Positions 8,281 through 34,498 of a stretch of DNA of 38,322 nucleotides are shown here, one piece after another. The first letter of the stretch is position 1. Each line of letters begins with the position of its first letter. This DNA is from an uncultured Opitutales bacterium (GTDB lineage Bacteria > Verrucomicrobiota > Verrucomicrobiia > Opitutales > UBA2995): the NCBI GenBank assembly GCA_938075565.1, contig CALJGU010000214.1, positions 1 to 38,322 on the forward strand. Reading direction: 5' to 3'. Made by a program: the position numbers and the translations under genes. The notes under the pieces were generated by a model. It ran no database searches and was not told where the DNA came from. It saw only the letters and a list, made by a program, of their open reading frames with translations.

Positions 8281-9636
8281 TCAGTACTCTAGCTTCACCA
8301 CGGTTGCGATTGAATTTGGTGCTTCCAGTGGTAGAGAGATGAATGCATCGTCGCCACGGATTTCCCATGGCAAGTCTTCACAGCAATCTATAACTTGGAT
8401 GCTTTTATATGGCCTTCCGTCCATGAGTGGAATCCGGAGCGTTCCGTCTTCTGGCCATTCGAAAACGTGAGCAAAGATCTGCCCCTCTTTCTGAGTAAAC
8501 CGTCCCCAATCAGGTTTTTCAAATGGGCTCGCATCTGAGCCGTAAATCGATTCCTCATACACGAACAGCCAGTCACCCATCGCGTGCAGTCGTTCGATGC
8601 TGGGTGCGGGAATGAGCCCTTCATGTGTCGGGCCTACATTCAAAAGGTAGTTCCCTCCCTTGGAAGCGATATCGATAAGGTTTCGTATCAGAAGCGCATC
8701 CGACTTCCACTCATTGTCAGCCGATTTCCAACCCCAGGTTTTATTCATGGTCATGCAGGACTCCCAATCGACACCGGGTAGCCCAGTATCAGGAATTTCC
8801 TGTTCAGGTGTTCCATAGTCACCCGCAAAGTCGCCTTCCGCGTCCAACCCCTACATACCTTTGCGCCCTTTATCAACTCGGTTATTGATAATGATGTCGG
8901 GCTGGAGATTGCGAACGAAGTTATAGACGTCCTTTCCCATCTCAGTTTTGTAATTCGGGATCCACTCGCCATCGAACCAGAGTATGCCCAGGTCCCCGTA
9001 ACCGGTCAGCAATTCCTTCAACTGGGGCTTCAAGTAGTTTTACACATACTGGGGGAATCGAGGGTTTTCACGCTCACGATCATTGTACTTGGGATAGAAA
9101 GGTCCCTGGGCATCCGGGTGATGCCAATCCATGATGGAATGATAAAAGCTCAGACGGATTCCATGCTTGTTGCAGGCGACAGAAGGTTCTTTCAGGATAT
9201 CTCTTTTAAAGGGTGAAGCATCCATGATATCCCAATCGCTGACCTTGGAGTCCCAAAGCGCGAAGCCGTCATGATGCTTGGAGGTGATGACGATGTATTT
9301 CATACCCCCATTCTTCGCGATACGGACCCACTCATCGGCATCGAAAAACACAGGATTAAACATGTCTGCATATCCTTCATACTCTTCCACAGGTATGGGA
9401 GCCCGGTGCATGATCCATTCACCAATGCCGGGAACCTGGTTGCCCTTATAAGTACCACCGTGAACAGAATAGACGCCCCAATGGATAAACATACCAAAGC
9501 GGGCTTCTTTCCACCACTCCATGCGATCTTCCCAATCTTCGGGTGTTTCTTCCAGATAGTTGTTACCCATGAGCGAGCAGACCAACATAAGCAATAAACC
9601 CGCCCAAAGTACACGACTTACAATTCGCATATTCAT
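8281..9636 (-). pseudogene. GH29 alpha-L-fucosidase with two in-frame stop codons
   Basis: A secreted alpha-L-fucosidase of 451 codons that would cleave terminal L-fucose. A signal peptide (about 1-25) is followed by the GH29 start WWKEARFGMFIHWGVYSVHG, the KHHDGFALWDSKVSDWDI signature, and ILWFDGEW, whose Asp (codon 222) is the expected catalytic nucleophile. Then come IIINNRVDKGR and GDFAGDYGTPEQEIP, and a small C-terminal beta domain. Codon 199 (9040-9042) is TAA, between PQYV and NYLKPQLKELL. Codon 262 (8851-8853) is TAG, between GRKGM and GLDAEGDF. All three segments are in one frame and align with the family without a gap, so two single-base changes explain the damage. The first stop removes the nucleophile, so an obeyed stop means no activity. 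The neighbour 2 bp away is the convergent, also interrupted, oxidoreductase. Confidence 0.88.
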
Positions 9637-10570: not shown

Positions 10571-12294
10571 CCATCGATTAAGCTCAATCTGAACGCTGCC
10601 ATCTCGCGATCATTGCGCACGAGCAAAACGTCATTGGCAATGACCGGATGGTTCCAGGTCTTTCCTTCAATGGCAGGTATTTTAGCCAGTTCAACAAACG
10701 CATCCGGCTTGGCTTCCGCCAGTACCAACTCACCTTCCTCAGAAAGGATGATCAAAATATCCTGGTCGGCCAGGAGTAGCAATTGTCCGCTTCCGTAGCG
10801 TCCGCCTTTCCAATTCCGGTCAGCCCCCTCTAGAGTCACAGACACCAAACGATTTCCATCAAATCCATAAACGTGTCTCTCGTGAATCAGGAAGTCGCTG
10901 AAGTAAGGTTTGAAGCGATTGGTGGCCCATTGCTCTTCCACAGACCAGCTTCCGTCTGTTTCTCCGACAGTCACACGACTCAGGCCTGAGGTTTCGCCAC
11001 GGCTCATGAGTAACTCACCATTTTGAATCTGCGCTGGCTGAACAATGCGAACGCCTCCCGGCCACTCGTAATTCCATAGAAGGGATCCGTCATCTGCAGC
11101 CGGAGAAGCCGCTCCGGCTTTGCTCATCAAAATAATCTGCTCATGTCCATCGATGGTGAGCATGTGTGGAGAACTGTAACCGTCCTTCCCATCTGGGCTT
11201 TTCCATAGAAATGCTCCCGACTGTACCTCGTAGGCAGCAAGAATTCCAGCCGTGGCGATGTAGATCTTGTCCTGAACGATGAGAGGTGAACCTGCTATTC
11301 CCCAGGCAGGTATTTTGGCCCCTGTATCTTCCACGGTATTTCGCGACCAAATGAGAGTAATATCGATCGCATTCAAAACGTTAAGCACTCCCGTTGCACC
11401 TAAAGCATAGACACGCCCTTCATGAATCAGAGGAGTTGCCCGTGGTCCGGCGCCTGCATTAGCCTCCCAGAAACGAATGGGATCGCTATGTATCCACAAT
11501 TGCTGTCCGGACTCCAAGCTATAGCAAACAACTACCTCAACTTCACCTCGCTGTTCCTGAGTAAACACGAGGCCTCCGAGCACAGCAAAAGAAGAACACG
11601 CAGGTCCGACTGATCGACGCCACAATTCCTGAGGTGGTGAAGTTCCCCAATCGGTATCGAAGGCAACAACAGACACCTTGGCATCTCGGTTTTCACCACG
11701 AAATCCCGTCCAGTGAGTCACCATCTCGTTCATCTTGATGTCGGCCAGAGATCCCGCAGAAGCTTCTGCCTCTGCTAAGAAACGATCCTCCGCGGTTTGG
11801 CTCCAGCGCCAGGCCATTTCATGATCCCCCGCACTGTCAAAGCCACCGGTTCTAGCAAACAACCAGATTCCTCAGCCGACAAAAATAGCTAGAGCCATAG
11901 ATGCCCAACGCGGTTCAAGGGATTTGCTCCGGATGAAAGTGACCCAAAGTACAAAAGCCAGGCACACGGTAGGGATCGCAAACATGCCATACATCATACC
12001 CATCATAGAGGTACCAATCGATTCGTGTAGAAACATTGAGACCAGCCACATAATCCCGATCACAAGCAGCATACCTCCGATTCGTTCCGACCAGCGTACT
12101 CGACTGAAAAATAACCACCAAATTAGAAGCAAAGGTCCACACGCCAGCGAACCGACCATTGCAACTAATAGCCCTTCAGGATAAATAGCCGGTAACACCC
12201 AGCGGAGAAACCATTGCAAGAAGACAATGACCAAAGCTGGCCAGAAGCGTAAAGACTGTGGAGTATGGTAGGAATTGTGAATGGTATTAGACAT
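10567..12294 (-). pseudogene. Membrane-anchored PQQ-like beta-propeller protein with in-frame TGA
   Basis: A 574-codon protein with an N-terminal membrane part of four or five helices (about 17-39, 42-64, 72-90, 100-121, 131-147) and a long C-terminal outer-wall PQQ-like propeller (from about 190). The propeller contains repeats such as GLVFTQEQRGEVEVVVCYSLESGQQLW and LNVLNAIDITLIWSRN. Codon 141 (11872-11874) is TGA, inside the fifth hydrophobic segment between ALAIFVG and GIWLFARTGG; the frame continues unbroken. TGG-to-TGA (Trp) or CGA-to-TGA (Arg) would explain it. If the stop is obeyed, only the membrane helices are made and the propeller is lost. Such propellers occur beside sulfatases in Verrucomicrobiota and Planctomycetota, with unclear function. 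The start is the ATG at 12294; a TTG two codons upstream is less likely. Confidence 0.8.
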
Positions 12295-12374
12295 ATTCAA
12301 AAAATACTCAGATCAACCCACTTTGTTCCAGCGAATTTCAGTCTTATGGATTTTAGTGAACCAAAACTCGATTC

Positions 12375-13130
12375 TCAGCTGGGAAGGTGATCGATTTGTC
12401 CCAATGGCCGGATCCAGATATCACGAAAGCGCACCAAGTCTCCGTGATCTTGTAACTTGAGTGGTCCGGTTGATCTATGGGTTTCAGTGGGTGAAAGTTC
12501 TTTATGAGTGGTCGGACCCACGAGTTCTTTTGCATGGTGAACAACTACACCATTGAGCAGCGCCGTGATGCGAGCGTGCTTGGTAAGTACGCCATCTTCA
12601 AAAACCGGGCACTCCCACAAAATATCGTAGCTGTTCCACTCGCCTGGTTCACGGATAGCATTTACCAGCGGTGGACATTGACCATAGAGCCCACCCACCG
12701 TGCCGTCGGCGTAAGTAGGGTTGTTGTAATTATCAAGGACCTGGACCTCGTATAGCCCCATGAGAAAGACGCCACTGTTTCCGCGACCCTGGCCTTCGCC
12801 TTTAATTTCAGGTGGGCAATAAAATTCAAGATGAAGCTGAACATCGCCAAAGGACTCGTGGGTTTGTATGTCTCCAGTTCCTAGAACGACTTCCATGGAA
12901 CCATCGCCAATCAACTGCCACTGAGCAGGGCCCTTTTCTTTGACCGATTCCCAGGCATCCAGATTGGAGCCATCGAATAATACAATCGCATCGCTCGGCG
13001 CTGAATTTCCAGTACCGGGAGTTACGATGGGTGGCTGCGGGCGTGTGCCATCGTGCACCGTGTATCCAGAATCTGGCAACACCGGTGTGTCAGAGTATCC
13101 AAGGGGTTCGTTTTCCGGAAAACGATTCAA
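12375..13130 (-). CDS. DUF1080 (3-keto-disaccharide hydrolase-like) protein
   Basis: A 251-residue single-domain protein of the DUF1080/PF06439 family, a concanavalin-like jelly roll. Recognisable blocks are PSDAIVLFDGSNLDAWES, FGDVQLHLEFYCPP, GRGNSGVFLMGLYEVQVLDNYNNPTYADG, EPGEWNSYDILWECP and GPLKLQDHGDLVRFRDIWIRPL. Characterised relatives hydrolyse 3-keto sugars or glycosides, so pairing with the Gfo/Idh/MocA oxidoreductase and ThuA protein suggests an oxidation-based glycan route; that is inference. No signal peptide is present, which fits a cytoplasmic enzyme. The only available start is a TTG at 13130, with no good ribosome site. The gene lies in the same reading frame as the upstream ThuA gene, whose TAA is 15 nt away. 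Confidence 0.8.
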   Translation of the reverse strand: MNRFPENEPLGYSDTPVLPDSGYTVHDGTRPQPPIVTPGTGNSAPSDAIVLFDGSNLDAWESVKEKGPAQWQLIGDGSMEVVLGTGDIQTHESFGDVQLHLEFYCPPEIKGEGQGRGNSGVFLMGLYEVQVLDNYNNPTYADGTVGGLYGQCPPLVNAIREPGEWNSYDILWECPVFEDGVLTKHARITALLNGVVVHHAKELVGPTTHKELSPTETHRSTGPLKLQDHGDLVRFRDIWIRPLGQIDHLPS

Positions 13131-13145
13131 GCTCGCATATAAACG

Positions 13146-13802
13146 TTAAGAGTTAGCTACCCAGAAGATACCTTGTCGCAGAATAGCTTCAAACGAAGGG
13201 TGATTCCAACCATTTGAGTCATGACCCAGCTGGAAGCAAAAGACGCGGCTGTTTTTCACCTCTCGTGTCCAGGCGGTAGGTCTCATCGTTTTTGGATGAT
13301 CGACCTTCAGTAACAGATGCCCTTGTGCATCCTCATCAGGCATATGATAGCCTTCATCTACAGTCTCGAAGGACTCAATTCCGGTCAGGATGGGATGAGC
13401 TGGATCCAGAACATCAACGTGTTGTTCTACATCGAAGTGAAACTCGAATCCTGCGTCCGGATCGGACTGCCGGTTCTGTAATCCAATCACTTCATCCCAG
13501 AAAGGCCAGTCGGGTAATGCAAAGAACGAATGATGAAGCGCAACGACTCCCTGTCCCCTTTCAAAAAGCCGCTCAATGGCCGGGCGCGGATCTCGCTTGA
13601 ACCAGGTATCTTCATAAGCCACCGACTGCTCCATGGTGTAAAACACAACTGCATCGTAGCTATCGCGGATCTCATCCGGCGAGGTGCCAAAATCATCCAG
13701 GTGTTGGATGTAGGCATCGACTCCTTCCATCTTCCGGAAGAGTTGATGAAACGATGGCAGGTCGAATGGATGTCCACCGGTTATGACTGCAATTTTTAAC
13801 AT
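13146..13802 (-). CDS. ThuA domain protein (trehalose-utilisation-like)
   Basis: A 218-residue protein covering the whole ThuA-like fold, which resembles class I glutamine amidotransferases. Blocks seen are MLKIAVITGGHPFDLPSF at the N terminus, YDAVVFYTMEQ, a GQGVVALHHSFFALPDWPFW core, DPAHPILTGIESFETVDEGYHM, and the C-terminal RVFCFQLGHDSNGWNHPSFEAIL. ThuA proteins take part in catabolism of trehalose and related disaccharides through 3-keto intermediates. No signal peptide is seen. The start is ATG 13802, 3 bp after the sulfatase stop, so the two genes are one transcription unit. The DUF1080 gene follows in the same frame. Confidence 0.85.
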   Translation of the reverse strand: MLKIAVITGGHPFDLPSFHQLFRKMEGVDAYIQHLDDFGTSPDEIRDSYDAVVFYTMEQSVAYEDTWFKRDPRPAIERLFERGQGVVALHHSFFALPDWPFWDEVIGLQNRQSDPDAGFEFHFDVEQHVDVLDPAHPILTGIESFETVDEGYHMPDEDAQGHLLLKVDHPKTMRPTAWTREVKNSRVFCFQLGHDSNGWNHPSFEAILRQGIFWVANS

Positions 13803-13805
13803 GAA

Positions 13806-15272
13806 TCAATCTGTCGTGAGATCCCAGGTCTCGTCAAAGGGCGTATGCTGTTCCATCATCATGGCTAGAAGCTGTTTTGCTAAACCCGGGTTAGCAGACG
13901 CCAGGTCGCGTTGCTCTCCCACATCCCAAGTGATATCGTACAACTCAACGGGGGCATCCTTGTTTTCATACAAGTTGTGGCGGATAGCCTTCCATTGATT
14001 TAAATAGAGCAGTGCTTGCCTACCATCAAGAGATGGGAACTCCCAGTATAGGAACTCATGCCTCTTCTGAGTATCGCCGTTTGCAGTGAGAGTAGGTACG
14101 ATGGAAATGCCATCGGTATCCGGTGACTCGGTACCGATCAGTTCAGCCATCGTAGGCATCATGTCGTGAAAGCCAGACATCAGGTCGCTTTCTTGTCCCA
14201 CCGGAATCGTGCCCGGCCAGGATGCAATAAAGGGAACTCGCACACCTCCATCAAAAAGCGCGCGTTTGTAACTCCGGAAATCTCCGTTAGAATCAAAAAA
14301 CTCGTGATCGTGGTTTCCCTCATGGTGCGGGCCATTGTCACTGGAAAACATCACGACGGTGTCTTCTGTCAGATCCAACTCATCTAGCAGAGCTACAATC
14401 TCGCCGACCCAGTCATCAATGTACTGAATCATGCGACCAAAGCCTTGTTCCTGGATCGGCCAGTCCTGAGCTCCAAATTTACCCACATCAGGCACCGCCA
14501 TGCCATTGAACTGCTTACCCCGGATGCGCGTTCCATCCGCTTCGTAACCATTGCCACCTTCATTGTTCGCGTGAGGAATATTGAGAGCATAGTAGAGGAA
14601 GAACGGATTCTCTTCATTCTCACGGATAAATCGCAGCACATCGTCCTGAATGAGCTGTGGAGCATAATCGACTTTCTTCGTCGCGACTCCCCTCCCCTCC
14701 TGGTAATAGGCTACCGGCATGTAATTGGTTGGCTCATCAAAAAAGTCGGGCACTTCATTGCGCAGCATTTCTTTCTCACCATTGCGAATGAGAAATTCGG
14801 GGTAGTAATTGTGCGCATGAAACATGTTCAGGTATCCGTAGAACTCATCGAATCCGGCCCGCTGCGGGTCCTTGTCATCCGGAGGAGTTCCGACACCCCA
14901 TTTGCCGATACAGGCCGTTCGATAGCCGGCCTTTTTAAACAACTCGGCAATCGTGAATTCCTCTTCTCCCATGGCCTTGATCCGATTGTTGCGGATAGCG
15001 GCATGGCCATTGTGCTTACCAGTCATCAAAACGTAGCGCGAGGGTGCACACACGGTCGCACCCGAATAGTGACTGGTGAACCGGATTCCATTATCGGCCA
15101 AGCGATCGAGATGGGGCGTCGTTAGCGTTTCCTGACCGTAGCACGAGAGATCGTTGTAGCCCAAATCATCGGCGAGTATGTAGATGACATTCGGGGCGGC
15201 GAAAGCATTCGTGGCGAATCCAACAATAACCAAGAGGAACGAAAATAATAGTCTAGGGGAACTCATAGGCAT
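13806..15272 (-). CDS. Secreted Cys-type sulfatase
   Basis: A 488-residue type I sulfatase. A signal peptide (about 1-25, ending TNAFA) is followed by PNVIYILADDLGYNDLSCYG with the metal-binding Asp pair. The formylglycine signature CAPSR is at 75-79, with LMTGKHNGH after it. IGKWGVG, a GPHHEGNH-type segment after MFSSDN, and a C-terminal YDITWDVGEQRDLA region complete the fold. The Cys of CAPSR must be oxidised to formylglycine by a maturation enzyme not encoded in this window. It would remove sulfate esters from a polysaccharide in the periplasm or at the cell surface. It is the first gene of a minus-strand run with ThuA (3 bp gap), DUF1080 and the PQQ-like gene. ATG 15272 is chosen; ATG 15266 would also keep the signal peptide. 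Confidence 0.93.
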   Translation of the reverse strand: MPMSSPRLLFSFLLVIVGFATNAFAAPNVIYILADDLGYNDLSCYGQETLTTPHLDRLADNGIRFTSHYSGATVCAPSRYVLMTGKHNGHAAIRNNRIKAMGEEEFTIAELFKKAGYRTACIGKWGVGTPPDDKDPQRAGFDEFYGYLNMFHAHNYYPEFLIRNGEKEMLRNEVPDFFDEPTNYMPVAYYQEGRGVATKKVDYAPQLIQDDVLRFIRENEENPFFLYYALNIPHANNEGGNGYEADGTRIRGKQFNGMAVPDVGKFGAQDWPIQEQGFGRMIQYIDDWVGEIVALLDELDLTEDTVVMFSSDNGPHHEGNHDHEFFDSNGDFRSYKRALFDGGVRVPFIASWPGTIPVGQESDLMSGFHDMMPTMAELIGTESPDTDGISIVPTLTANGDTQKRHEFLYWEFPSLDGRQALLYLNQWKAIRHNLYENKDAPVELYDITWDVGEQRDLASANPGLAKQLLAMMMEQHTPFDETWDLTTD

Positions 15273-20694: not shown

Positions 20695-21372
20695 CTATCC
20701 CCGCAAAGAGTAAGAGAAGGGAATTCTCACCCGAGCTTTCACTGGGACTCCTTCAATCTTTCCCGGCTTAAAGGTCCACTGCTTGATCGCAGTTAAAGCG
20801 GACTCGTTGAATTGTTGGTTAGTACTTTCCTCTATTTCCCAATCCACCACCTTCCCTGTTTCATCGACCACGAACTCTACTATTACAGTGGCTTGCTTGC
20901 GTAACCGCTTCAGCGCACGAGGATATCTAGGAGTTACACTTTCAAGCACTTCAGGTTTCACATCCAGTCCATCGATGTCGTGCGCTTCGATGGGCGTTAA
21001 GGCATATTTGAAGGGTTGCCTGACACGTGTTCTAACCGCTTTGTCGTTGCGGACGCCGGGTTGAAATCTCCACTGCTGGATGGCTTTTAAAGCAGATGCA
21101 TTAAAACGTTCGTCTGAGCTCTCCTCAATACTGGCTTTCGTTACGACGCCAGTCTCATCGACGATAAATACAGCGGTCACCTCTGCGCGGATTCTATTGG
21201 CTTTCAGCTCAGGGGGATAAACGGGTGTAATTAGTACTACCGGCAAGGGAGCCTTGTCCAAATCGGAACACTCAAACACAGCCTGTGCGACCGAAGATTC
21301 ATCGTTGGAGAAAGACGGGATGGAGCTGAGCACAAAGCTAAATAAAGAAAGGAGTGAAATTAGTTTTTTCAT
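20695..21372 (-). CDS. Secreted protein with two tandem TonB C-terminal domains
   Basis: A 225-residue protein with a cleavable-looking signal peptide (about 1-22, MKKLISLLSLFSFVLSSIPS) and two TonB_C repeats. Repeat 1 (about 45-125) has TPVYPPELKANRIRAEVTAVFIVDETG and ALKAIQQWRFQPG. Repeat 2 (about 142-223) has TPRYPRALKRLRKQATVIVEFVVDETG and ALTAIKQWTFKPG. A normal TonB has one such domain, a proline-rich linker and an uncleaved membrane anchor; all but the domain are missing here. It could bind receptors in the periplasm without delivering energy, or serve another role. It is a single gene convergent with the symporter and divergent from the SGNH hydrolase. Confidence 0.85.
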   Translation of the reverse strand: MKKLISLLSLFSFVLSSIPSFSNDESSVAQAVFECSDLDKAPLPVVLITPVYPPELKANRIRAEVTAVFIVDETGVVTKASIEESSDERFNASALKAIQQWRFQPGVRNDKAVRTRVRQPFKYALTPIEAHDIDGLDVKPEVLESVTPRYPRALKRLRKQATVIVEFVVDETGKVVDWEIEESTNQQFNESALTAIKQWTFKPGKIEGVPVKARVRIPFSYSLRG

Positions 21373-25292: not shown

Positions 25293-26717
25293 ATGTCATC
25301 TTTTTCTGAATACGCCACAGAAGTTAATCGCAGAACATTCCTCAAGAAGTCTCTTTCCAGCCTGGGAGTGGTAGCTCTCGGTGATCTTTTTGCCTCCGAT
25401 GCCATTGGTGCCTCGAACCCAATCCTGGGAAGCACAGGCTTACACCATCCAGCGAAAGTGAAACGAATCATTCACCTTTGTATGGCCGGCGGACCTTCGC
25501 ACTTGGAAACCTTCGATTACAAACCCGTGCTGGAAGCCCAACACGGACAAGCCATGCCGACATCAGTGACTGACGGTGAACAGATCGCTCAGCTACAAGG
25601 CGCAGAACTCAAGATTAAGGGCCCTACTTTCAAGTTCTCCCGCCATGGGCAAAGTGGCATGCAAATCAGCGACCAGTTTCCGCACATTGCCGGCCTTGCC
25701 GATGAGATCGCTGTGATACGTTCCATGTATACGGAGCAGATCAATCATGATCCGGCTCATACCTTTATGAATACGGGATCGATCATTCCTGGACGCCCCA
25801 GCATGGGAGCCTGGACCCTCTACGGTCTAGGAAGCCTGTCCAACGATCTACCCGGCTACGTGGTCCTTACCTCCGAAGCCGGGGGCCAAGGGCAACCGAT
25901 ATCCGCAAAGCAATGGCACAATGGTTTTCTACCAAGCAAACACCAAGGAGTAGAACTACAATCCAAAGGGGATCCAGTCTACTATGTCGGAAATCCCGAC
26001 GGTGTAAGCCGGGGTTCTCAGGGTGATCTCGTTGAAACCATCAACTCACTCAACGATCACCTCGCCTCACAAAGGCATGATCCGGAAATCGCCACACGAA
26101 TCGCTCAATACGAGCTCGCCTTTCAAATGCAGGCTTCTGTGCCTGACCTGGCCGATTTCTCAAAAGAACCACAGCATATTCTGGAGAGCTATGGGTGCAC
26201 ACCCGGAGACGGCTCCTATGCCTCTAATTGTTTGATGGCACGACGATTGGCTGAACGAGGCGTGCGCTTTATTCAACTCTACCACCGTGGCTGGGATCAC
26301 CACAGCAATCTCGAGAAAAACTTTACATCGGTGGCCCAACTAGCGGACCAACCCACCGCAGCATTGATCAAGGACTTGAAAGAACGAGGTATGCTCGATG
26401 AGACCCTCATTATCTGGGGCGGCGAGTTTGGCCGGACCCCCATGAGTCAGGGAGGCGGCGGCGATGGTCGCGACCACCACATAAAAGGCTTCTCAATCTT
26501 TCTAGCCGGCGGAGGCATCAAGGGCGGCACCACCTACGGAGCCACCGACGACTTTGGTTACAATGCCGAAGAAAACCCCACTGCCGTGCACGACTTGCAC
26601 GCCACCATGTTGCACTTGCTTGGGGTCGACCACAAGCGTCTGACATACAAGTTCCAAGGACGAGACTTCCGCCTAACCGATGTGCACGGACACCTGATCG
26701 ACGGTATTCTGGCTTAG
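25293..26717 (+). CDS. DUF1501 protein (alkaline-phosphatase/sulfatase-fold), Tat-type signal
   Basis: A 474-residue protein of the DUF1501 family. A Tat-like leader NRRTFLKKSLSSLGVVALG (about 12-30) implies export in folded form. IHLCMAGGPSHLETFDYKP, MYTEQINHDPAHTFMNTGS, GYVVLTSE, IQLYHRGWDHHSNLEKNF and IIWGGEFGRTPMSQGGGGDGRDHH are the family's metal-site and fold blocks. It is the usual partner of PSD1 proteins and follows one by 7 bp. The exact reaction is not known. Its stop overlaps the stop of the convergent gene at 26714-26717. Confidence 0.9.
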   Translation: MSSFSEYATEVNRRTFLKKSLSSLGVVALGDLFASDAIGASNPILGSTGLHHPAKVKRIIHLCMAGGPSHLETFDYKPVLEAQHGQAMPTSVTDGEQIAQLQGAELKIKGPTFKFSRHGQSGMQISDQFPHIAGLADEIAVIRSMYTEQINHDPAHTFMNTGSIIPGRPSMGAWTLYGLGSLSNDLPGYVVLTSEAGGQGQPISAKQWHNGFLPSKHQGVELQSKGDPVYYVGNPDGVSRGSQGDLVETINSLNDHLASQRHDPEIATRIAQYELAFQMQASVPDLADFSKEPQHILESYGCTPGDGSYASNCLMARRLAERGVRFIQLYHRGWDHHSNLEKNFTSVAQLADQPTAALIKDLKERGMLDETLIIWGGEFGRTPMSQGGGGDGRDHHIKGFSIFLAGGGIKGGTTYGATDDFGYNAEENPTAVHDLHATMLHLLGVDHKRLTYKFQGRDFRLTDVHGHLIDGILA

Positions 26718-27607
26718 CCGGCTGACTCAGCTGACTCAAGCTTCTCAAGCTCGCGAAATTTCTCCAACTGCTCGGGCGTAATTTCCTTGATCGCTTTGGC
26801 TATGTTGGTCGCTACGTGATCCCCATTTCCATCAAAGAAGAATACATCCACCTTGGCATCAGCTATGTTATGCTCAGGGAAGGTGCAGGTAGATTTCATA
26901 TTCCGAGCCACTCCGGATTCAACATCACCTATTGATATAATGCGCACCACAGAGCGACGGATTCCTTGCAAACGCTTCTGAGCATTCTGCTCTTTGAAAC
27001 TAAGAACCACAGCGGCATAAGCGTTGTCGATAGCCTGCCTCGGTTGAAGTTCAAATCGCAGCGAGATCGTATCCATCAAAATATTGGCTCCAAAAGCATC
27101 AGGATCATCTATGGATTGATTATAAGAGAGCTGGTCCAGTTCATCTACACTCTGAGCGCTATCTTCAAAAGACTGAGCTCCTCCACCCTCTTCCAGCGAC
27201 ACTCCACCTCCGGCTCCGAAAAAGGTACCGTTCTGCGTGGCTTGTTCAAAATTCTGCCCCTGCTCAAAACGCATCTGCTCGGAATTCATCTCGTTGATTG
27301 CCATAAGCTCCGTCATGTCGGCTCTGTTCGAGTTAAAGCTATAGCTCAGGCCATTTACCTCTGCATACTTATTGCTGATGGCGACAACAGGCTTCATCTG
27401 ACACGGCAAATTTCCAGCCGGCCTTAGGCGTTTTTTGATGCCTTCCAATCGTAGGCGGTCTCCATCAAATGTTTCGATGGGAAAAAAGTCTTCACTCACT
27501 GCGGCACTAACCTGGCCACTGAGAAACACATAGTGTGGTCCGGATTCGGCAGTCCCAACAATGACTGAGACGATCAATAAGCAAACGGTAGCGATACTGA
27601 TTTTCAT
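26714..27607 (-). CDS. Unrecognised secreted protein, paralogue A flanking the TonB operon
   Basis: A 297-residue protein with a signal peptide (about 1-20). I do not recognise the family. It is clearly homologous to the protein at 33163-34059: both have HY[VL]FLSG[QK]VS near residue 30, a FDG motif, KP[VI][VL]A[VI]S near 75, a central LSYNQ[SN]ID, I[DE]NAYGA/AYAA near 195, a [VL]D[VL]F[FL]FD strand, then HVATN[IM]A and a charged C-terminal helix. A Gly-rich insert (about 130-145, FFGAGGGVSLEEGGGAQ) is specific to this copy. It is the last gene of the DUF3450-TtpC-ExbB-ExbD-TonB-TPR operon, 53 bp after the TPR gene. The context suggests a periplasmic accessory to TonB-dependent transport, which is inference. 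Confidence 0.8.
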   Translation of the reverse strand: MKISIATVCLLIVSVIVGTAESGPHYVFLSGQVSAAVSEDFFPIETFDGDRLRLEGIKKRLRPAGNLPCQMKPVVAISNKYAEVNGLSYSFNSNRADMTELMAINEMNSEQMRFEQGQNFEQATQNGTFFGAGGGVSLEEGGGAQSFEDSAQSVDELDQLSYNQSIDDPDAFGANILMDTISLRFELQPRQAIDNAYAAVVLSFKEQNAQKRLQGIRRSVVRIISIGDVESGVARNMKSTCTFPEHNIADAKVDVFFFDGNGDHVATNIAKAIKEITPEQLEKFRELEKLESAESAG

Positions 27608-27660
27608 AACTTGATATATTTTAATGTTAGTATGGTTCTGTGGTCAGGGTTGGAAAATTA

Positions 27661-29073
27661 TTATTGGAGCGTTCCTTGAGTCAGGCTGATCCGGTCGAGT
27701 TCTTGTTTTCGAGCTGCGTGCATACAGTCTTGGTAAAGATTGGAAGCGTGGTCACCAGCGCCTTCGGCAATGGCCACTTCCAGTTTCTCCCCTGCTGCAT
27801 AGTAAGATTGCATACTCATAAGAATTTGCGCCTGAGCAATGAGTGCATTGCGGCGCGATGATGCGTGAGACTCGGCAAGGGCTAGGGTTTCCAAAGAGGC
27901 TTCAGATTTGCCACCTTGAAACTGGACGATTCCCAAACGCAGCCGAATGTCTCCCAATCGCTTTCCTATTTCAAGCCCTTTTGTCAGGACCCGCTCGGCC
28001 TCCGGGAGGTCCCCAGCCAGCTCAGCCCGCTTGGAGCCGATCAGAACCAGTAACGCCCGGCTCTCATCTGACAATGAATCCTCATCTGCCGATAAGCTAT
28101 CGTGTAAACGATCGGCCAGGTCGACCCACTGATTTTTGTAGAGGCCATTGACGCAAATGAGCAAGGCATCGCCATCCGGGACATGGCCCTTTGCGATCAT
28201 CTCAATAAACACTTCGGCTGCGAGATCGAATGACTCCGTATTGATGTAAACACGCGCCAACATGTCGTATTCCTCAAAGTTCATTTCGTTAGTCAGGCGC
28301 AGAAATTCCATACAAGCAGCAGCTTCTATAAAATCTTCCTGTTGAATGTAGAGGTTAGACAAGGTACGCCAGAATTCGCCCTCTTCCGGTTGGCGGCGCG
28401 TCAGACTCTCTAGAATAACGATCGCCGCCTCATTGTTGCCCAAGGCAATGTGACAGGACAGGTTGCCTCGCATCCAATCCAGATTTGTCGGATCGTAGAG
28501 CAACGCCTGCGAGTAGGCTGATTGGGCGGCCATATGGTCTCCCTGCAGGTAGTAACAATAACCGATCTGACCAAAAGTGTCCGGCTCGGTATCGCCCAGC
28601 TTGATCGCTTTTCCAAAAGCGTCCAAAGCCGTTTCGTAGTCTTCCGCGTACAAGCTGATCCAACCAATGGATCGCCAGGCACGCATGTAGTCCGGGTACT
28701 TCGCCAATGCTTTCTTGTAGGACTGCAAGGCGTCCGGCTCGCGCTGAGACTGATAGTAAAGATTGCCCAGGACAAAATCGAAAGAAGCGGAGAGGTCCTG
28801 ATTATTGGCCGTCAGGCCCTCGATCATCTCAAGCGCAAAATTAGGATCTTCTTCGAGGAAAGGTAAGAACTTCTCTACAATGGCGTACTCGCCTTGATTC
28901 AAGGCGGGCTCGCGGTTACTGAGAAACCCATAACTGCCTTGGATTTTTTTCGCCAGTTCCGACTCCGTGATCGGCTTATCGACACTGATTGATTGTGCAG
29001 TACCCAACAATGGGATACAAAGTATGATAGTCGCTGTGAAAGCTATAAGACGAACTGTTTTCTGATTCCCCAT
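27661..29073 (-). CDS. TPR-repeat periplasmic protein of the TonB operon
   Basis: A 470-residue protein with a signal peptide (about 1-27, ending LLGTAQS) and about ten tetratricopeptide repeats from roughly residue 85 on, such as FDFVLGNLYYQSQREPDALQSYKKAL and MRAWRSIGWISLYAEDYETALDAFGKAI. TPR proteins accompany TonB2/TtpC-type clusters in marine Gammaproteobacteria (Vibrio) in the same position, where they seem to assist the system. The ATG at 29073 lies 5 bp after the tonB stop; a longer in-frame opening to 29190 overlaps tonB and is unlikely. The distinct length and lack of enzymatic motifs suggest protein-protein contacts in the periplasm. Confidence 0.85.
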   Translation of the reverse strand: MGNQKTVRLIAFTATIILCIPLLGTAQSISVDKPITESELAKKIQGSYGFLSNREPALNQGEYAIVEKFLPFLEEDPNFALEMIEGLTANNQDLSASFDFVLGNLYYQSQREPDALQSYKKALAKYPDYMRAWRSIGWISLYAEDYETALDAFGKAIKLGDTEPDTFGQIGYCYYLQGDHMAAQSAYSQALLYDPTNLDWMRGNLSCHIALGNNEAAIVILESLTRRQPEEGEFWRTLSNLYIQQEDFIEAAACMEFLRLTNEMNFEEYDMLARVYINTESFDLAAEVFIEMIAKGHVPDGDALLICVNGLYKNQWVDLADRLHDSLSADEDSLSDESRALLVLIGSKRAELAGDLPEAERVLTKGLEIGKRLGDIRLRLGIVQFQGGKSEASLETLALAESHASSRRNALIAQAQILMSMQSYYAAGEKLEVAIAEGAGDHASNLYQDCMHAARKQELDRISLTQGTLQ

Positions 29074-29078
29074 AAAAG

Positions 29079-29756
29079 TTACAACCCGAACCGGGAGTTG
29101 GCTTTGTTGATAATAATTCTTTGTTTTACCCAACAACGAACCTTCATGCCGTTTTTCTCTGCTGGCGAGTAGGTCCATGTCTTGACGCATGCGACGACCT
29201 CCTCGTTGAATTTGGCATTCGATGTTTCAAGCACATAGGTATCACCCACCGTACCGTCAACGTTGACCACATAGATAAGCTGAACGGATTCCTTGGGTTT
29301 CTTAATCTTCACATCGGGCATGACACGGTAGATGTGTTCCGGGCGCTTATCAACTTCCCTGCCCTCGTAGACGACCATGTCGTTTATGTCCCGCCCTTTC
29401 ACCTCGAACTTGGAAAGGTCGAAGTCAACTTTCTGCACGATATCCTGAGCTCGCGTTGGGCGAATGTTGGACGCCAATAATTTGATGGCCAAATTATCCT
29501 GAGACAAAGCAAAGTCGACCTGCGCGGAAATGGTGTTGTCCGGCTCATCCGCCGGTTGCTCCACTTCGGGAGGCTTCGGGGGCGTGATCTGCACCGATTG
29601 AGTAACGAAGGCATTCACTTGCTCCTCTGGCTTCGCGTCTTTTTTCAAACTTAAGGAGACAGTATAGAAAAGACCGGCCGATACGGTCACACCAATAACC
29701 GCATGGAGCAACTTCTGGCCCCAAGTGTATGGTGTGGTTGTATTCCAGTCTTTCAT
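29079..29756 (-). CDS. tonB: TonB energy-transducing protein
   Basis: A 225-residue protein anchored by one N-terminal helix (about 17-37, AVIGVTVSAGLFYTVSLSL). A short periplasmic proline-containing linker (ITPPKPPEVEQPADEP, about 57-72) and an extended region precede a TonB_C domain (about 145-220) with VNVDGTVGDTYVLETSNAKFNEEVVACVKTWTYSPAEKNG. It transmits proton-motive energy from ExbB/ExbD to outer-membrane receptors such as the one at 305-3586. The linker is short, as in TonB2-type proteins. It follows exbD by 6 bp and precedes the TPR gene by 5 bp. Confidence 0.9.
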   Translation of the reverse strand: MKDWNTTTPYTWGQKLLHAVIGVTVSAGLFYTVSLSLKKDAKPEEQVNAFVTQSVQITPPKPPEVEQPADEPDNTISAQVDFALSQDNLAIKLLASNIRPTRAQDIVQKVDFDLSKFEVKGRDINDMVVYEGREVDKRPEHIYRVMPDVKIKKPKESVQLIYVVNVDGTVGDTYVLETSNAKFNEEVVACVKTWTYSPAEKNGMKVRCWVKQRIIINKANSRFGL

Positions 29757-29762
29757 GAACGT

Positions 29763-30170
29763 TTAGTACTCCGTGGCAAAATTTACTTTCGTCGCACCCG
29801 CGGCCTTGGCTTCTCCGTAGACACGGGAAAACACGCCATGGTCGGCCCGTTCATCAGCCTGAATGATCACTGGGATCTCAGCGATCTCCATCTGGCGTTT
29901 GACGATACCCGCCACACCGGAGATTCCGATCTCTGTTCCTGCATAGACGACGTTATTCTCAGCTGTGATGGCAATGAGCAGGCTCTTCTTATCCAACTGA
30001 GTAGAGGCAGCGGCCTCCGGCTTGTTTACTTCGACTCCGGTTTCCTCGATGAAAACAGTGGTGACGATATAGAAAATCAACAGGATGAACACGCAATCGA
30101 TCAAAGGAGATAAATTGATCTCCGCGCTGTCGAAATCCCCGTCCGGGTTACTGACACGATTTCGAATCAT
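29763..30170 (-). CDS. exbD: ExbD/TolR biopolymer transport protein
   Basis: A 135-residue protein with one N-terminal membrane helix (about 20-42, [23 protein letters not shown] preceded by AEIN). It includes the conserved membrane Asp in [10 protein letters not shown] that takes part in proton passage. The periplasmic domain (about 45-135) has the usual [25 protein letters not shown] segment. It forms the channel with ExbB and couples to TonB. The start is 1 bp after the exbB stop (30172), so the pair is translationally coupled. Confidence 0.92.
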
Positions 30171-30171
30171 C

Positions 30172-30771
30172 CTAACTCGCGCCCTCCATCGTGTTTAGAA
30201 ATTGAGTTTCCAAGCTTCCAAAAACGGCAAGGGTTCGGTTGAGGTGACGCTGCACCAGGTAAGTCAGAAAGATCGCGGGAATGGCCACAACCAATCCGGC
30301 ATTAGTGGTGAGCAGTGCTTTGGAAATCCCACTGGCAACCAGAGTAGAAGCATCTTCGCCCATACCGGTGCTCAAGGCTGAGAAGGTTTGGATCATTCCG
30401 GTGATGGTTCCCAGCAACCCCAAGAGAGGTGCAGCAGCAATCGCAATTTTTATATGGGCTAGCTTGGATGTCACCAATCTCTGGATACCCCGTCGAGCGA
30501 ACTTCAGGTAAGAGATAGCCAAATGGCTATTGTCGCTGAATCCATCCAGTCCTTCCGACAGATTCCTCCAATAGCGATTCAGTTTGGCATTGGGGGGCAG
30601 AGCGTTTCCTTGAATGCGTACCACCTTATAGGGGGCCGAGGTAGTCAAGGTCAGATGCAGCGCACGCAACAGCGTTCCATACAAGAGAATGGAAAGTATA
30701 AAGATACAAATAATGATAGGCCCACCTGCATCGGCCACTTCAAGAAAGGGAGCCATCCATTCCATCGTCAT
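30172..30771 (-). CDS. exbB: ExbB/TolQ/MotA-family proton channel protein
   Basis: A 199-residue inner-membrane protein with three hydrophobic segments (about 14-38, 108-130, 150-175). It carries the family block [25 protein letters not shown] and [25 protein letters not shown]. ExbB pentamers hold ExbD and drive TonB with proton flow. Its start overlaps the stop of the upstream TtpC-like gene by one base (TGATG). A second ExbB-like domain is present in that upstream gene, so the operon has two ExbB-type proteins. Confidence 0.92.
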
Positions 30772-32183
30772 CAGGCACTCTCCTTTCTCGATTCCTGCAG
30801 TGAGATAACAAACTCAGAAGCCAAGTCCTCCAGCGAACCCAGCTTTTCGCGAGCGGAGCGCAACAGCACACCATGCAAGATCAACGCTGGGATAGCTACG
30901 ATGAGTCCGAACTCGGTGGTGACCAAGGCCTCGGAAATTCCGGCGGAAAAAGATTGAGCATTACCCGAACCAAATACGGTGATGAGCGAAAAGGTTTTAA
31001 TCATACCCACCACGGTTCCCAGCAAGCCCATCAAAGGTGACGTGGCAGCAATAATGGCCAAGAACGGGAGCAAGCGCTCGAGGCGTGTCTTTACGTTACG
31101 TATCTCACCAATGATCACTTCTTCAATCACATCGCTTTGGTGATCCGCATATTTTAAAGCCACTGAAAGTACACGATTGGCTGGGAAAGGTTTCTTCTCT
31201 GCCAAGGCTAGAGCCTCCTCGTTGCCTTTGGTCAAACGGTGTTCGATCAAGTCGGCCACAGGCACTCCGTGGAGTCCACGCACCCGGGAAAGATCGAGCA
31301 TCTTAACCAGCACAATGAGCAAGGCCACCACGGCAAAGCCCAGAATGACATATCCCACCATGCCTCCCTTTTCCACATGCTCTTCGATGGACCACTCGGT
31401 TTGACCAAACTCTTTGGCCTGTCCCAAAGTGATATCGATGGGAAATGCAGTAGACGTTCCAGAAGACAGTGCGTTGATTTGATCAATCGCTATTTCAGGC
31501 ACGGCGCTTAGCTCCGGTAGAAGCGAATTGGTCTCAAAGGTCAGTTCTCCTGCCGACTGGTTATCTCCCCCGACAAAGTAAGCCGTCGGCCCGGTTAAAG
31601 TGATGGAACCTTCTAAAATGTCCCCAGACTCATTCACTGACTTGCCGTCAAAGCTGTAACCGCCCAAGGCCTTTTCAATGCGTTCGAAGGATAGGTCGAT
31701 CACTTCAAGCTGAGCCAGCATCTGCTCCTCACGGGAAGCACCTTCGTTCTTCTTATTCCTCAACTCAGTAAAGCGAGGTCGGTAAAGCTGATCTTCAGCC
31801 GGGTGAATCAAGGTATCGAAATTGGAGAGGTGATCCACGACGAGGGCATCGATAAAGTCGATCTGATCAGCCTGTCCTGTATTTTGTTCCTCGATACGCT
31901 CAACCACGCTCAATCGTTCTGACCGCTTGAGCAGAAGCATGTCCGTTTGGTTACGCAGCTGACTCACACGCATACGCTTGCCGTTCAGCGGGGTAACCAA
32001 GGCCAATTTCTTGTTAGATACCTCGGCCGATAGCTGTTCGTATTCCTCCAAAGCTTTTTCAAACTGAGCTTCAAGCGTGATGCTCTTTCCAGCGATGTTG
32101 AGCTCTTGAGCACGGAGGATTGAGCACGACAAAACTACAATGCCGACTACACCACAAAATGTCTTCCAAAGGTGACTACTCAT
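30771..32183 (-). CDS. ttpC: Long ExbB-like protein with extended periplasmic N-terminal region (TtpC-type)
   Basis: A 470-residue protein with a signal peptide (about 1-25, ending RAQE). A periplasmic coiled-coil and beta region covers about 30-265, with FEKALEEYEQLSAEVSNKK and DALVVDHLSNFDTLIHP. A C-terminal MotA/TolQ/ExbB domain (about 275-460) includes VGYVILGFAVVALLIVL, LAIIAATSPLMGLLGTVVGMIKTFSLI and ISEALVTTEFGLIVAIPALIL. This architecture is that of TtpC, the extra protein essential in Vibrio TonB2 systems. It overlaps the DUF3450 stop by 8 bp and the exbB start by 1 base. An upstream opening to 32297 overlaps the DUF3450 gene and is rejected in favour of ATG 32183. Confidence 0.85.
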   Translation of the reverse strand: MSSHLWKTFCGVVGIVVLSCSILRAQELNIAGKSITLEAQFEKALEEYEQLSAEVSNKKLALVTPLNGKRMRVSQLRNQTDMLLLKRSERLSVVERIEEQNTGQADQIDFIDALVVDHLSNFDTLIHPAEDQLYRPRFTELRNKKNEGASREEQMLAQLEVIDLSFERIEKALGGYSFDGKSVNESGDILEGSITLTGPTAYFVGGDNQSAGELTFETNSLLPELSAVPEIAIDQINALSSGTSTAFPIDITLGQAKEFGQTEWSIEEHVEKGGMVGYVILGFAVVALLIVLVKMLDLSRVRGLHGVPVADLIEHRLTKGNEEALALAEKKPFPANRVLSVALKYADHQSDVIEEVIIGEIRNVKTRLERLLPFLAIIAATSPLMGLLGTVVGMIKTFSLITVFGSGNAQSFSAGISEALVTTEFGLIVAIPALILHGVLLRSAREKLGSLEDLASEFVISLQESRKESA

Positions 32184-32940
32184 GAGAGCTCCTGAGTGGA
32201 ATTTGAATAAAGGAGGGAATCTCAACGCCTTCATGAATAGAGAAGGCCTGGCGAATCCCTTCCAGATGATCGTTCGCATCTTCCCAGACCCAGGCATCGT
32301 CTCCGGGATGCCCTACTTGAGCAATTGTGTTGGAAGGATCAATCCGATACCCCGTGGCAATTCCCCAATAGAGGGTATCCAACTGCTTAGCTCCGTCTCC
32401 CCCCTCGTAAGACTCTTTGGTGAAAAACGGTTTCTGATTAAAACGATGAACCAGATTAAGCGCCGATACGAGGGACTGATAGCGGGCACCTATAGTTTTA
32501 ACCTCCCGATCTGGCGCTTCCCCCAATTCATCTTTAACCTGAGTGCTCAGCGGATCCGGTAGGCGAGGCGTAAGCTTCAGCAACAAGGATTCATAATTCA
32601 CAGCGCTCTCTTTCAGGCGCTCCAATATGCGGTCCTGGTCATCAGCCGAAACGGTTGCCACGTCTTCCCGTGCGAGAAGCTCGTTGTTAATACCGAGTAG
32701 AACTTCCAGCTTCTCTTCCAATCCCTTAAGCTCCGCATCCAACAAGGTTTGCTCCTGCTTGAGTTCAGCCTGGTCCAGCTCCCAATCACTGCGGAGTTTG
32801 GCAGTGTCTTTCTTGATTTCGATGCGTTTTTCCAACAGCTCGATGGCCTTGTCTACTTCGACTGAAGTCGCGCCAGCCAGGACCATTGGAATAAAACATA
32901 ATAGAGGAATAGCCTTCGTAGGTAATTTGAGAAGAGTCAT
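32176..32940 (-). CDS. DUF3450 coiled-coil protein of the TtpC/TonB operon
   Basis: A 254-residue periplasmic protein with a signal peptide (about 1-23, ending VLAGA). A long charged coiled coil (about 28-90) contains ELLEKRIEIKKDTAKL and LDAELKGLEEKLEVLL. The globular C-terminal half has LYWGIATGYRIDPSNTIAQVG and EGIRQAFSIHEGVEIPSFIQIPL, the DUF3450 hallmark. In Vibrio the equivalent gene precedes ttpC. It is the first gene of the six- or seven-gene TonB operon. The 222-bp upstream region is shared with the divergent paralogue B gene. Confidence 0.87.
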   Translation of the reverse strand: MTLLKLPTKAIPLLCFIPMVLAGATSVEVDKAIELLEKRIEIKKDTAKLRSDWELDQAELKQEQTLLDAELKGLEEKLEVLLGINNELLAREDVATVSADDQDRILERLKESAVNYESLLLKLTPRLPDPLSTQVKDELGEAPDREVKTIGARYQSLVSALNLVHRFNQKPFFTKESYEGGDGAKQLDTLYWGIATGYRIDPSNTIAQVGHPGDDAWVWEDANDHLEGIRQAFSIHEGVEIPSFIQIPLRSSHE

Positions 32941-33162
32941 ATAAACTGAGATGATGGTGACAGAGCCAGGAGAGTCCTGAAAATGGCACTGAACGAGTCG
33001 TCACAAGGAGTAACGGGATCTTGAAGGCTAGGGTTACTCGATAGTGGAAGAATTTAGAAATGAGGAGCAATGTTTTTATCAGCAGTCTTTCCCAGTTTCC
33101 CTTGCTGTTTGACTCAAAATTGAATCTGGATACGGTAACAACCTGCAGCAATCTACCCGATT
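32941..33162. promoter_or_regulatory. Divergent promoter region of the TonB operon and paralogue B
   Basis: This 222-bp region separates DUF3450 (leftwards) from the paralogue B gene (rightwards). It holds an inverted repeat GAGTAAC/GTTACTC (33008-33014 and 33033-33039, spacer of 18). A TTGACT hexamer (33109-33114) lies 16 nt from TACGGT (33131-33136), a weak plus-strand -35/-10 pair about 27 nt before the ATG at 33163. The inverted repeat is a candidate operator for joint control. Confidence 0.35.
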
Positions 33163-34059
33163 ATGAGAACAATTACTATTATTAGCCTACTACTCACCTC
33201 TCTTTCTTTAGCCCTTGCCCAAGAAAACGCCCCTGCTTCTGAGAAGTCTCACTATCTCTTCCTGAGTGGGAAAGTGAGTGTCGATGTGAAGGGAGAAATG
33301 GTTCCTATCACAAGCTTCGACGGGAAGCGCTACCAGGCAGGAGGAAAGAACATTAAACCCTCCCCCAAATTGGGCGCCGGGCTAAAACCCATCCTCGCTG
33401 TCAGCACCATGTTCGCGGAAGTATCCGAATTCAGTTTCAACCTACACTCCTTAGAATCCGAGATTCGTGCGCTACATTCGATGAACGAGGTCGGAGCCGA
33501 GGATTTGCAAAATCAGATGGGACTTGATTTTGAGCATGCCGCGCTCGCCTCTGACAAACTCTCCGCCACTGCCGCTGGAGATAGTGCACGGCTTAGTGAG
33601 ATCCAGAACCAACAACGAGATCTCTGGAATAATGAGGATACTCAGGAAGATCTCAGCTATAACCAGAACATCGATCAAATCGACAATTTAAATGGCTTGG
33701 GGTTCATGGATATGATCAAAGGCCAGTGCACCTTCATATCCACGAAGAACATTGAAAATGCTTACGGCGCCTTGTCTATCAGTCTTCAAGTAGCCCAAAA
33801 AGATGGATCATTGAAAAAGGCGGCCCTCATTCGAACCTTTCCAGTGGGAGACCTACAAGAAGGGAAAACCCATCCCGTGGAATTCGAATGTCAGTTTCCT
33901 GAGCTGAAAGTGGCTGGAGCCAAGGTCGACCTCTTTCTATTCGACAGCAAAGGCAAGCACGTGGCCACCAACATGGCTCGAGGACTCAAGAAAGTTAGCA
34001 AAGAAGAACTTGAAGAGTTGCGTGCACAAAGTAGATCCAAGCAAGGGAAAGAAAGCTAA
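33163..34059 (+). CDS. Unrecognised secreted protein, paralogue B flanking the TonB operon
   Basis: A 298-residue protein with a signal peptide (about 1-20, ending LALAQ). I do not recognise the family. It shares with the protein at 26714-27607 the motifs HYLFLSGKVS (30-39), SFDGKR (51-56), KPILAVS (75-81), FAEVSEFSF, LSYNQNIDQ (164-172), IENAYGALSISLQ (197-209), AKVDLFLFD (253-261), GKHVATNMA (264-272) and a charged C-terminal helix (about 275-298). It lacks the Gly-rich insert of the other copy. It is read divergently from the TonB operon. The two copies on either side of the operon make a role in this energising complex plausible (inference). Confidence 0.8.
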   Translation: MRTITIISLLLTSLSLALAQENAPASEKSHYLFLSGKVSVDVKGEMVPITSFDGKRYQAGGKNIKPSPKLGAGLKPILAVSTMFAEVSEFSFNLHSLESEIRALHSMNEVGAEDLQNQMGLDFEHAALASDKLSATAAGDSARLSEIQNQQRDLWNNEDTQEDLSYNQNIDQIDNLNGLGFMDMIKGQCTFISTKNIENAYGALSISLQVAQKDGSLKKAALIRTFPVGDLQEGKTHPVEFECQFPELKVAGAKVDLFLFDSKGKHVATNMARGLKKVSKEELEELRAQSRSKQGKES

Positions 34060-34138
34060 CTCGTTTTAAAATTAGCGACCTCAAAACGGCTCCAATCTCC
34101 AAATGAGATTTAGCTTATTCCTGCAGAAATGAAGAACA

Positions 34139-34178
34139 CCCGCAATCTGCTGATTGTAAATCACTTGTTTTTCCAATT
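34139..34178 (-). pseudogene. Degenerate tRNA relic
   Basis: Read on the plus strand, this 40-nt segment matches the tRNA-Thr at 38271-38310 at 32 of 40 positions without a gap. Five of the 8 differences are transitions. It covers the T-stem edge, anticodon arm and D arm. The anticodon loop reads TTTACAA on the minus strand, so the anticodon would be TAC, not TGT. The acceptor stem and T-loop are not recognisable, so it is not a functional tRNA. It lies in the same orientation as the intact tRNA about 4.1 kb away. Confidence 0.6.
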
Positions 34179-34222
34179 TTCACGCGGCCTCCAGAGACAC
34201 TGTATACGGTCTTGTAGCTAGA

Positions 34223-34498
34223 TTGCTTTCAGAAACAGCTTTGGTTCATCTTCTTTTTGTCGTACACCCCGATGAGAGGAGATCTTATTTGTTTATGACC
34301 TGGCTGTATGGGGACCAAGACGCTCCTCCCAGTCCAGATCAAGTTGTGGCTCCTGTAACAGCTCAGGGTGCGTTCTCCTTCGATAACATGTTTTTCGCGG
34401 AAGGCCCTTCAACGATGGAGAGACTCATCTGGGAAGAGTTGACTGAAGGGCCTAGAATCCCAAAAGGTCTTGGTTATTCTTCTATGCCGGAAAAATAG
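34223..34498 (+). CDS. Doubtful small hypothetical ORF
   Basis: A 91-codon frame from a TTG (ATG at 34295 is a later start). The product has protein-like composition (MTWLYGDQDAPPSPDQVV, GAFSFDNMFFAEGPSTMERL) but matches no family I recognise. There is no clear ribosome site. A 10-bp inverted repeat (34402-34411 and 34444-34453) lies within it. It may be a remnant of a larger gene or a chance frame. Confidence 0.25.
   Translation: MLSETALVHLLFVVHPDERRSYLFMTWLYGDQDAPPSPDQVVAPVTAQGAFSFDNMFFAEGPSTMERLIWEELTEGPRIPKGLGYSSMPEK

Follow-up and report, generated by a model that had tools for sequence, protein, structure and literature searches.

The window analyzed here is a stretch of 38,322 nucleotides (nt) from an uncultured Opitutales bacterium (contig CALJGU010000214.1 of assembly GCA_938075565.1; G000 in our genome sample), and our subject is the pair of genes, encoding proteins A and B, that flank an operon for a TonB energizing system (Table 1). 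An earlier note, made from the sequence alone, had proposed that paralogous secreted proteins of unrecognized architecture bracket a complete DUF3450-TtpC-ExbB-ExbD-TonB-TPR operon, one as its terminal gene and the other divergent from its head. Pfam domains and the order of open reading frames (ORFs) bear this out: both ORFs exist, the operon is complete, A is terminal, B diverges from the head, and all six gene types of a TonB2-type system are present in the reference order. The gene for A lies on the same strand as the TPR gene, 53 nt behind its end, and would be the seventh gene of this six-type TtpB-TtpC-ExbB-ExbD-TonB-TtpD operon. The start of the ttpD ORF overlaps tonB, and the true TtpD start is probably further downstream. 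By eye, A and B both have apparent N-terminal signal sequences and no clear lipobox. Predicted promoters and terminators across 26400-34400 showed no excess over chance; two weak promoter-like plus-strand sites (32927-32955 and 32957-32984) were found in the area of the divergent region, the total for 26400-34400 being at chance level. A scan of the window for a Fur-box consensus gave four loose matches against 1.8 expected, one at the start of A and none within 32941-33162.

Table 1. Features of the TonB locus in the window and c8 genes at other loci (aa, amino acids; AF2, AlphaFold2)
Locus	Feature	Position	Strand	Description	Basis
Window	Protein A	26714..27607	-	297 aa; short family member; putative seventh and last operon gene	ORF list, pairwise alignment, AF2 model
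Window	TtpD-type TPR protein	27661..29190	-		Pfam TPR (several models); TtpD by comparison with PMC6957404
Window	TonB, S-x-F-tail type	29079..29756	-		Pfam TonB_C (PF03544)
Window	TonB C-terminal tail SRFGL (S-x-F tail)	29082..29096	-		TonB tail comparison
Window	ExbD	29763..30170	-		PF02472
Window	ExbB	30172..30771	-		PF01618
Window	TtpC	30771..32297	-		PF01618 in C-terminal part; TtpC tree
Window	TtpB (DUF3450)	32176..32940	-		PF11932; TtpB by comparison with PMC6957404
Window	Divergent region between ttpB and B	32941..33162	.		Promoter scan
Window	Protein B	33163..34059	+	298 aa; short family member; divergent from operon head	Pairwise alignment, AF2 model
L096	c8 gene	8629-9504			
L113	c8 gene	2688-3557			
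L010	c8 gene	4015-4872			
L011	c8 gene	5529-6428			
L101	c8 gene	11883-12902			
L101	c8 gene	12790-14052			

A and B are paralogs, with 35% identity across 264 aa in pairwise alignment (E 7e-51). The motifs that the note had quoted as common to both are present as HY[VL]FLSG, FDG, LSYNQ[SN]ID, NAY[AG]A and HVATN[IM]A, with two adjustments: NAYGA reads NAYAA in A, and the D-F-FD motif is DVFFFD in A and DLFLFD in B. The architecture was rightly called unrecognized, as neither protein had a significant match in Pfam, NCBIfam or PHROGs (the best hits were at chance level, E 0.02 or worse), and B, the one of the two run against PDB sequences, had none there. The accessible text of the literature on TonB in Opitutales, Opitutaceae, Verrucomicrobia and Verrucomicrobiota, which leaves most subscription papers outside its scope, describes no such gene. 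Judged by sequence and as far as searched, A and B belong to an undescribed family. With B as the query, A and B were the sole matches at E ≤ 1 in the window genome, and a profile search added three longer members elsewhere in it (L096, L097 and L098). We accordingly distinguish short members (about 270 to 320 aa, like A and B) from long members (about 340 to 470 aa from the likely start), which have an N-terminal part (N-part) in common.

The family recurs within Opitutales. Of 273 Opitutales genomes sampled, 10 gave matches to B as a query (18 places in all), and profiles found a member with the N-part in 17; given this recurrence, the original observation is not a chance one. The long-member profile matched 55 genomes, of which we counted only those 17 as family-bearing; the other 38 match through C-terminal TonB-like columns, to which further TonB-like proteins respond in many genomes, or through part of the second domain, and G247 (a partial match, E 2e-4) was likewise left uncounted. 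In samples of the class and the phylum, which themselves include Opitutales genomes (the number from outside the order was not counted), matches appeared in 10 of 385 and 12 of 367 genomes (one of the latter weak and partial), all within Opitutales. When each species was represented by one genome and scanned by pattern, an approach that detects close relatives only, two relatives came up, both from Opitutales.

A member lies directly behind the TPR gene in 10 genomes of five families. These comprise the window genome and G004; G066, G201, G034, G171 and G223, with a single terminal copy; and G271, G227 and G146, with two copies in tandem. The contig of G146 ends before ttpC, and the ORF start in G171 is over-long, its likely start falling just behind the TPR gene, so that it was counted as operon-terminal. 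Family genes lie away from the operon in G125, G211, G235, G243 and G251. Among the loci examined, copies on both flanks occur only in the window genome and in G004, whose A and B are 93% and 95% identical to those of the window. The idea that a flanking pair represents two subunits of one complex is therefore not supported as a general rule, since members elsewhere are single, tandem or unlinked. TtpC itself is common (a match in 145 of 273 genomes), and most TtpC operons examined have no family gene: among 40 loci fetched for TtpC regardless of the family, one (L045) has it, although four of the 40 have no visible TPR gene and some are cut by contig ends. On another contig of the window genome (C115, locus L063) there are two more TtpB-TtpC operons in tandem, of the ordinary type; the contig stops directly behind the TPR gene of the second operon, and at L060, the equivalent locus of G004, no family member is seen in that place.

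The TonB proteins of the family-associated operons form, by their sequences, a distinct type that profile scores split sharply from other Opitutales TonBs. In a tree of 49 TtpC proteins, all eight operons with a family gene fall into one clade of 13 rows (support 100/99); the remaining five rows come from G125, G251 (two), G211 and G235, each of which encodes family members elsewhere, and the presence of a family gene needs three changes on this tree. The TtpC of L045 sits on a long branch and its exact position is unsure. In TonBs of the clade, the C-terminus consists of S-x-F followed by no more than three residues (16/16, versus 0/29 other TonBs), the canonical [YF]P...G (YP) motif is lacking (present in 0/16 versus 25/29) and VxC[WL] is mostly present (13/16 versus 0/29). 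The YP motif belongs to the region of TonB_C that helps to hold the TonB box of the receptor. The S-x-F tail was noticed on 13 TonBs and then found in that of L122, which had not been used in finding it. Across the order, the TonB profile scored at least 151 bits at 17 places in 15 genomes, with the next best at 129 bits; the tail is present in the best TonB match of all 15 genomes and in none of the next 15, and the third copy in G251 ends in SPLSIF. Scores with one TtpC profile overlap between the clade and the other TtpCs and fail to separate them, but the clade is told apart by the score difference of two profiles, as it is by the TtpC tree and the TonB profile. The window also encodes, outside the operon, a second TonB-like protein of the ordinary type (20695-21372, minus strand; 225 aa), with the C-terminal end FSYSLRG.

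The distribution of the family follows that of this TonB type. All 15 of the 273 genomes with an S-x-F-tail TonB are among the 17 family-bearing genomes (Fisher p 7.5e-23), including five in which the operon itself has no family gene; counted by genus, the figures are 10/10 versus 1/78 (p 2.4e-12). If six genomes with uncounted matches (G027, G138, G086, G052, G195 and G247) are taken as family-bearing, the proportions become 15/15 versus 8/258. In four genera (g1, g5, g48 and g49), some sampled genomes have both the family and the TonB type and others have neither, and a fifth (g79) shows the same pattern if partial matches are left uncounted, a pattern that speaks for the two having been gained or lost together and against a single ancient event. 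When homologs were searched for as the note had suggested, we saw neither a scatter without any link to TonB nor a match to a well-known family.

The long members provide a further tie to TonB. Their N-parts align with short members over nearly the full length (hhalign 100%, E 1e-41). The fetched operon loci supplied 34 TonB-like proteins, with whose C-terminal part the last 80 residues of long members align (hhalign 96.4%, E 1.4e-9), versus 0.6% for the N-part against the same 34 proteins; 12 of 15 long members entered the comparison of ends, three with an insertion being left out. In the window genome, L098 scores 27.1 bits with PF03544 (cut-off 24.6), while the Pfam scan gave no PF03544 match for A and B themselves. 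Long members have no evident proline-rich spacer. A tree of N-parts separates short from long members with one exception, a 315-aa ORF (L111) that falls among the long ones; as its profile match runs on past the stop codon, it resembles a long member cut short by that stop. Apart from the family proper, L178 (2586-5999, minus strand) encodes a protein of at least 1,138 aa that combines Sel1 repeats, a region resembling the second domain of the family and a TonB_C-like end, with a relative in G138 (L179); this combination recalls the neighboring TPR and family genes and weakly suggests contact between the TPR protein and the family protein. Secreted-looking proteins of about 285 to 315 aa that end in a TonB_C-like stretch occur at L180, L181, L182 and L184, mostly in genomes without an S-x-F-tail TonB (G201 has one); the end of L182 exceeds the Pfam cut-off, those of L180 and L181 are below it or unmatched, and L184 was outside the scan.

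The fetched loci contain 52 family genes, of which 13 are operon-terminal, two are B, and six form a group near TonB-dependent receptors. For the last group, a receptor Plug domain was confirmed in neighbors at L096, L100 and L118, and the placing of L113, L116 and L029 relies on BLASTP clustering with those neighbors; L096, L113 and L116 are one lineage, and other genes intervene before the receptor in L100 and L029. The proximity of unlinked members to receptors is suggestive, and with 12 to 73 Plug matches per genome in the 17 family-bearing genomes, some such proximity is to be expected by itself. Some unlinked members lie near sulfatase or glycoside hydrolase genes. A second unnamed family, c8 (about 285 to 420 aa), is encoded beside family members or beside a TonB-dependent receptor, and five of its six listed genes were scanned with no significant Pfam match. 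It is multicopy and present in 33 of 66 genomes (16/17 family-bearing versus 17/49 others), and we rejected it as a specific partner because it is too widespread in genomes without the family.

AlphaFold2 models of A and B, each built from four sequences, reached a mean predicted local distance difference test score (pLDDT) of 62 and 63 and a predicted TM-score (pTM) of 0.52 and 0.54, respectively; the other four models of B had a pLDDT of 38 to 49. In both, the predicted layout is a small beta domain, a poorly predicted helical insert, a beta sandwich and a C-terminal helix, so that the N-part common to short and long members may consist of a beta domain, a helical insert and an immunoglobulin-like (Ig-like) domain. 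Foldseek searches of PDB matched both models to Ig-like sandwiches (PDE-delta and UNC119; E about 8e-4, target TM about 0.3 to 0.4) and showed, for the A model, a weak likeness to the Wzt sugar-binding domain. The models thus support a predicted Ig-like domain in A and B and no more; a function derived from the PDE-delta/UNC119 match was rejected as too weak and too general.

The proposal of a hitherto undescribed accessory component linked to TonB is supported well beyond gene order, by the operon-terminal position in 10 genomes, the TonB_C-like end of the long members, the 15/15 co-occurrence with one TonB type and the few members near receptors; of the genomes examined, only two fit its reading as a pair. 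The sequences themselves show where the genes lie, that they form a family, that long members end in a TonB_C-like stretch, and that a distinct TonB type exists with which the family co-occurs; we infer that the proteins would be exported to the periplasm, contact TonB, TtpD or receptors, and help in receptor engagement. We therefore hypothesize, with a probability of roughly 0.6, that A and B are periplasmic coupling adaptors of an unusual TonB2-type system. A and B would be exported to the periplasm to serve one subtype of the TtpB-TtpC-ExbB-ExbD-TonB-TtpD energizing system. There, a family protein might dock on the S-x-F-tail TonB, for which the tail is a candidate site, on TtpD with its TPR motifs, or on both; once docked, it might assist the moving TonB in gripping or letting go of certain TonB-dependent receptors. 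In long members, the TonB_C-like end could take part in touching the receptor. A and B, like other short members, have no such end and would rely on their remaining domains (N-terminal beta domain, helical insert, Ig-like domain); the two may act together or each on receptors of its own. Loss of the YP motif in exactly the family-associated TonBs would be expected if another protein had taken over part of the contact with the TonB box. A more far-reaching version, which we regard as tentative and rather doubtful, is that Opitutales possess a distinct TonB class without the usual receptor-gripping motif, whose S-x-F tail captures a periplasmic protein, with the long form making or sharing the receptor contact through its own TonB_C, so that force would pass in two steps, from motor to TonB and then by way of the adaptor to the receptor.

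Several observations weigh against the adaptor hypothesis. It draws on sequences and models, and the models of A and B are weak, given their low pLDDT values and the four sequences behind them. As many as 31 of the 52 family genes lie in neither the operon, the place of B nor the group near receptors. The co-occurrence p-values ignore relatedness, and the searches scored the best 6 (family) or best 10 (TonB) candidates per genome. Two genomes, G007 and G001, have the family without an S-x-F-tail TonB; G007 is 88% complete in 900 contigs, and its copy L009 lies at a contig end, adjoining a relative of the gene neighboring A, which we take to be DUF1501-like. The Pfam cut-off for TonB_C is reached by one of 14 long members scanned, the other 13 falling below it. 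Finally, distant relatives consisting of the second half of the N-part and a TonB_C-like end occur in genomes without an S-x-F-tail TonB (G027, G138, G086 and G195; not counted as family members).

The best surviving alternative, which we nonetheless consider unlikely, is that these are substrate-side proteins that bind or receive an imported nutrient, probably a sugar polymer, in the periplasm behind the receptor and share no more than the locus with the energizing system. The modeled Ig-like second domain, with its weak likeness to PDE-delta/UNC119 and, for A, to the Wzt domain, would fit such a role, as would the unlinked members near sulfatase or glycoside hydrolase genes; however, a terminal position in an energizing operon and the TonB_C-like end of long members would not, and the co-occurrence follows one TonB type rather than receptors, which are numerous in all 17 genomes. 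We give little weight to a brake or decoy that competes for TonB or the TonB box and so regulates or allocates TonB among receptors. A TonB_C-like end without an evident proline-rich spacer and several paralogs per genome (at least six in some) would suit a competitor, but the TonB_C domain is missing from short members, A and B among them, and a pure brake need not be kept so consistently with one TonB type. An obligate A-B heteromer specific to this operon, as the earlier note had envisaged, appears quite improbable: two copies do lie around or behind the operon in G000, G004, G271, G227 and G146, but G066, G201, G034, G171 and G223 have a single terminal copy, and a flanking B is confined to G000 and G004. 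A genomic hitchhiker with no role in TonB work, for which the many unlinked copies would speak, deserves hardly any credence in view of the 15/15 co-occurrence, unlinked cases included, and the repeated terminal position across five families.

To our knowledge, how TonB finds and pulls many different receptors is still an open question. If the adaptor hypothesis holds, the family and the aberrant TonB type would offer a concrete extra part and, in the S-x-F tail, a candidate docking site, making this question testable with two proteins and a short peptide.

One of the closest known components is the TonB C-terminal domain (PF03544/TIGR01352), with which the end of long members aligns; long members differ from it in having no evident proline-rich spacer, and A and B in having no such domain. 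In concept, the locus also recalls Tol-Pal, where secreted proteins are encoded together with a motor resembling ExbB/ExbD/TonB and whose periplasmic partners, in the accessible text of PMC12204202, include TolB and CpoB; A and B match no Pfam family and hence are neither of these. In the TBDR-pTFP module, as outlined in the accessible part of PMC13217887, the gene for a small periplasmic protein (pTFP) lies next to that for a TonB-dependent receptor, a synteny shown in Opitutales and other groups; pTFP is described as a thioredoxin-fold protein with a CXXC motif. We rejected this identity for A and B, which match no such family and belong to a different one. The nearest counterpart of the whole locus is the Vibrio TonB2/TonB3 system. 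According to the accessible text of Barnes et al. (2019, PMC6957404), the TonB2 system of Vibrio vulnificus consists of six proteins (TtpB2, TtpC2, ExbB2, ExbD2, TonB2 and TtpD2), its operon starts with ttpB2 and ends with ttpD2, TtpD2 has TPR motifs, and TtpB2 and TtpD2 are essential for siderophore uptake. The window has the identical six gene types in the identical order; it differs from the operon described there in adding A behind the TPR gene and in its TonB, which has the S-x-F tail and lacks the YP motif. The six-gene operon is thus already known from Vibrio, and what is new here is the added family and the distinct TonB; if our hypothesis is correct, the six-part Vibrio system would be extended to seven parts in Opitutales.

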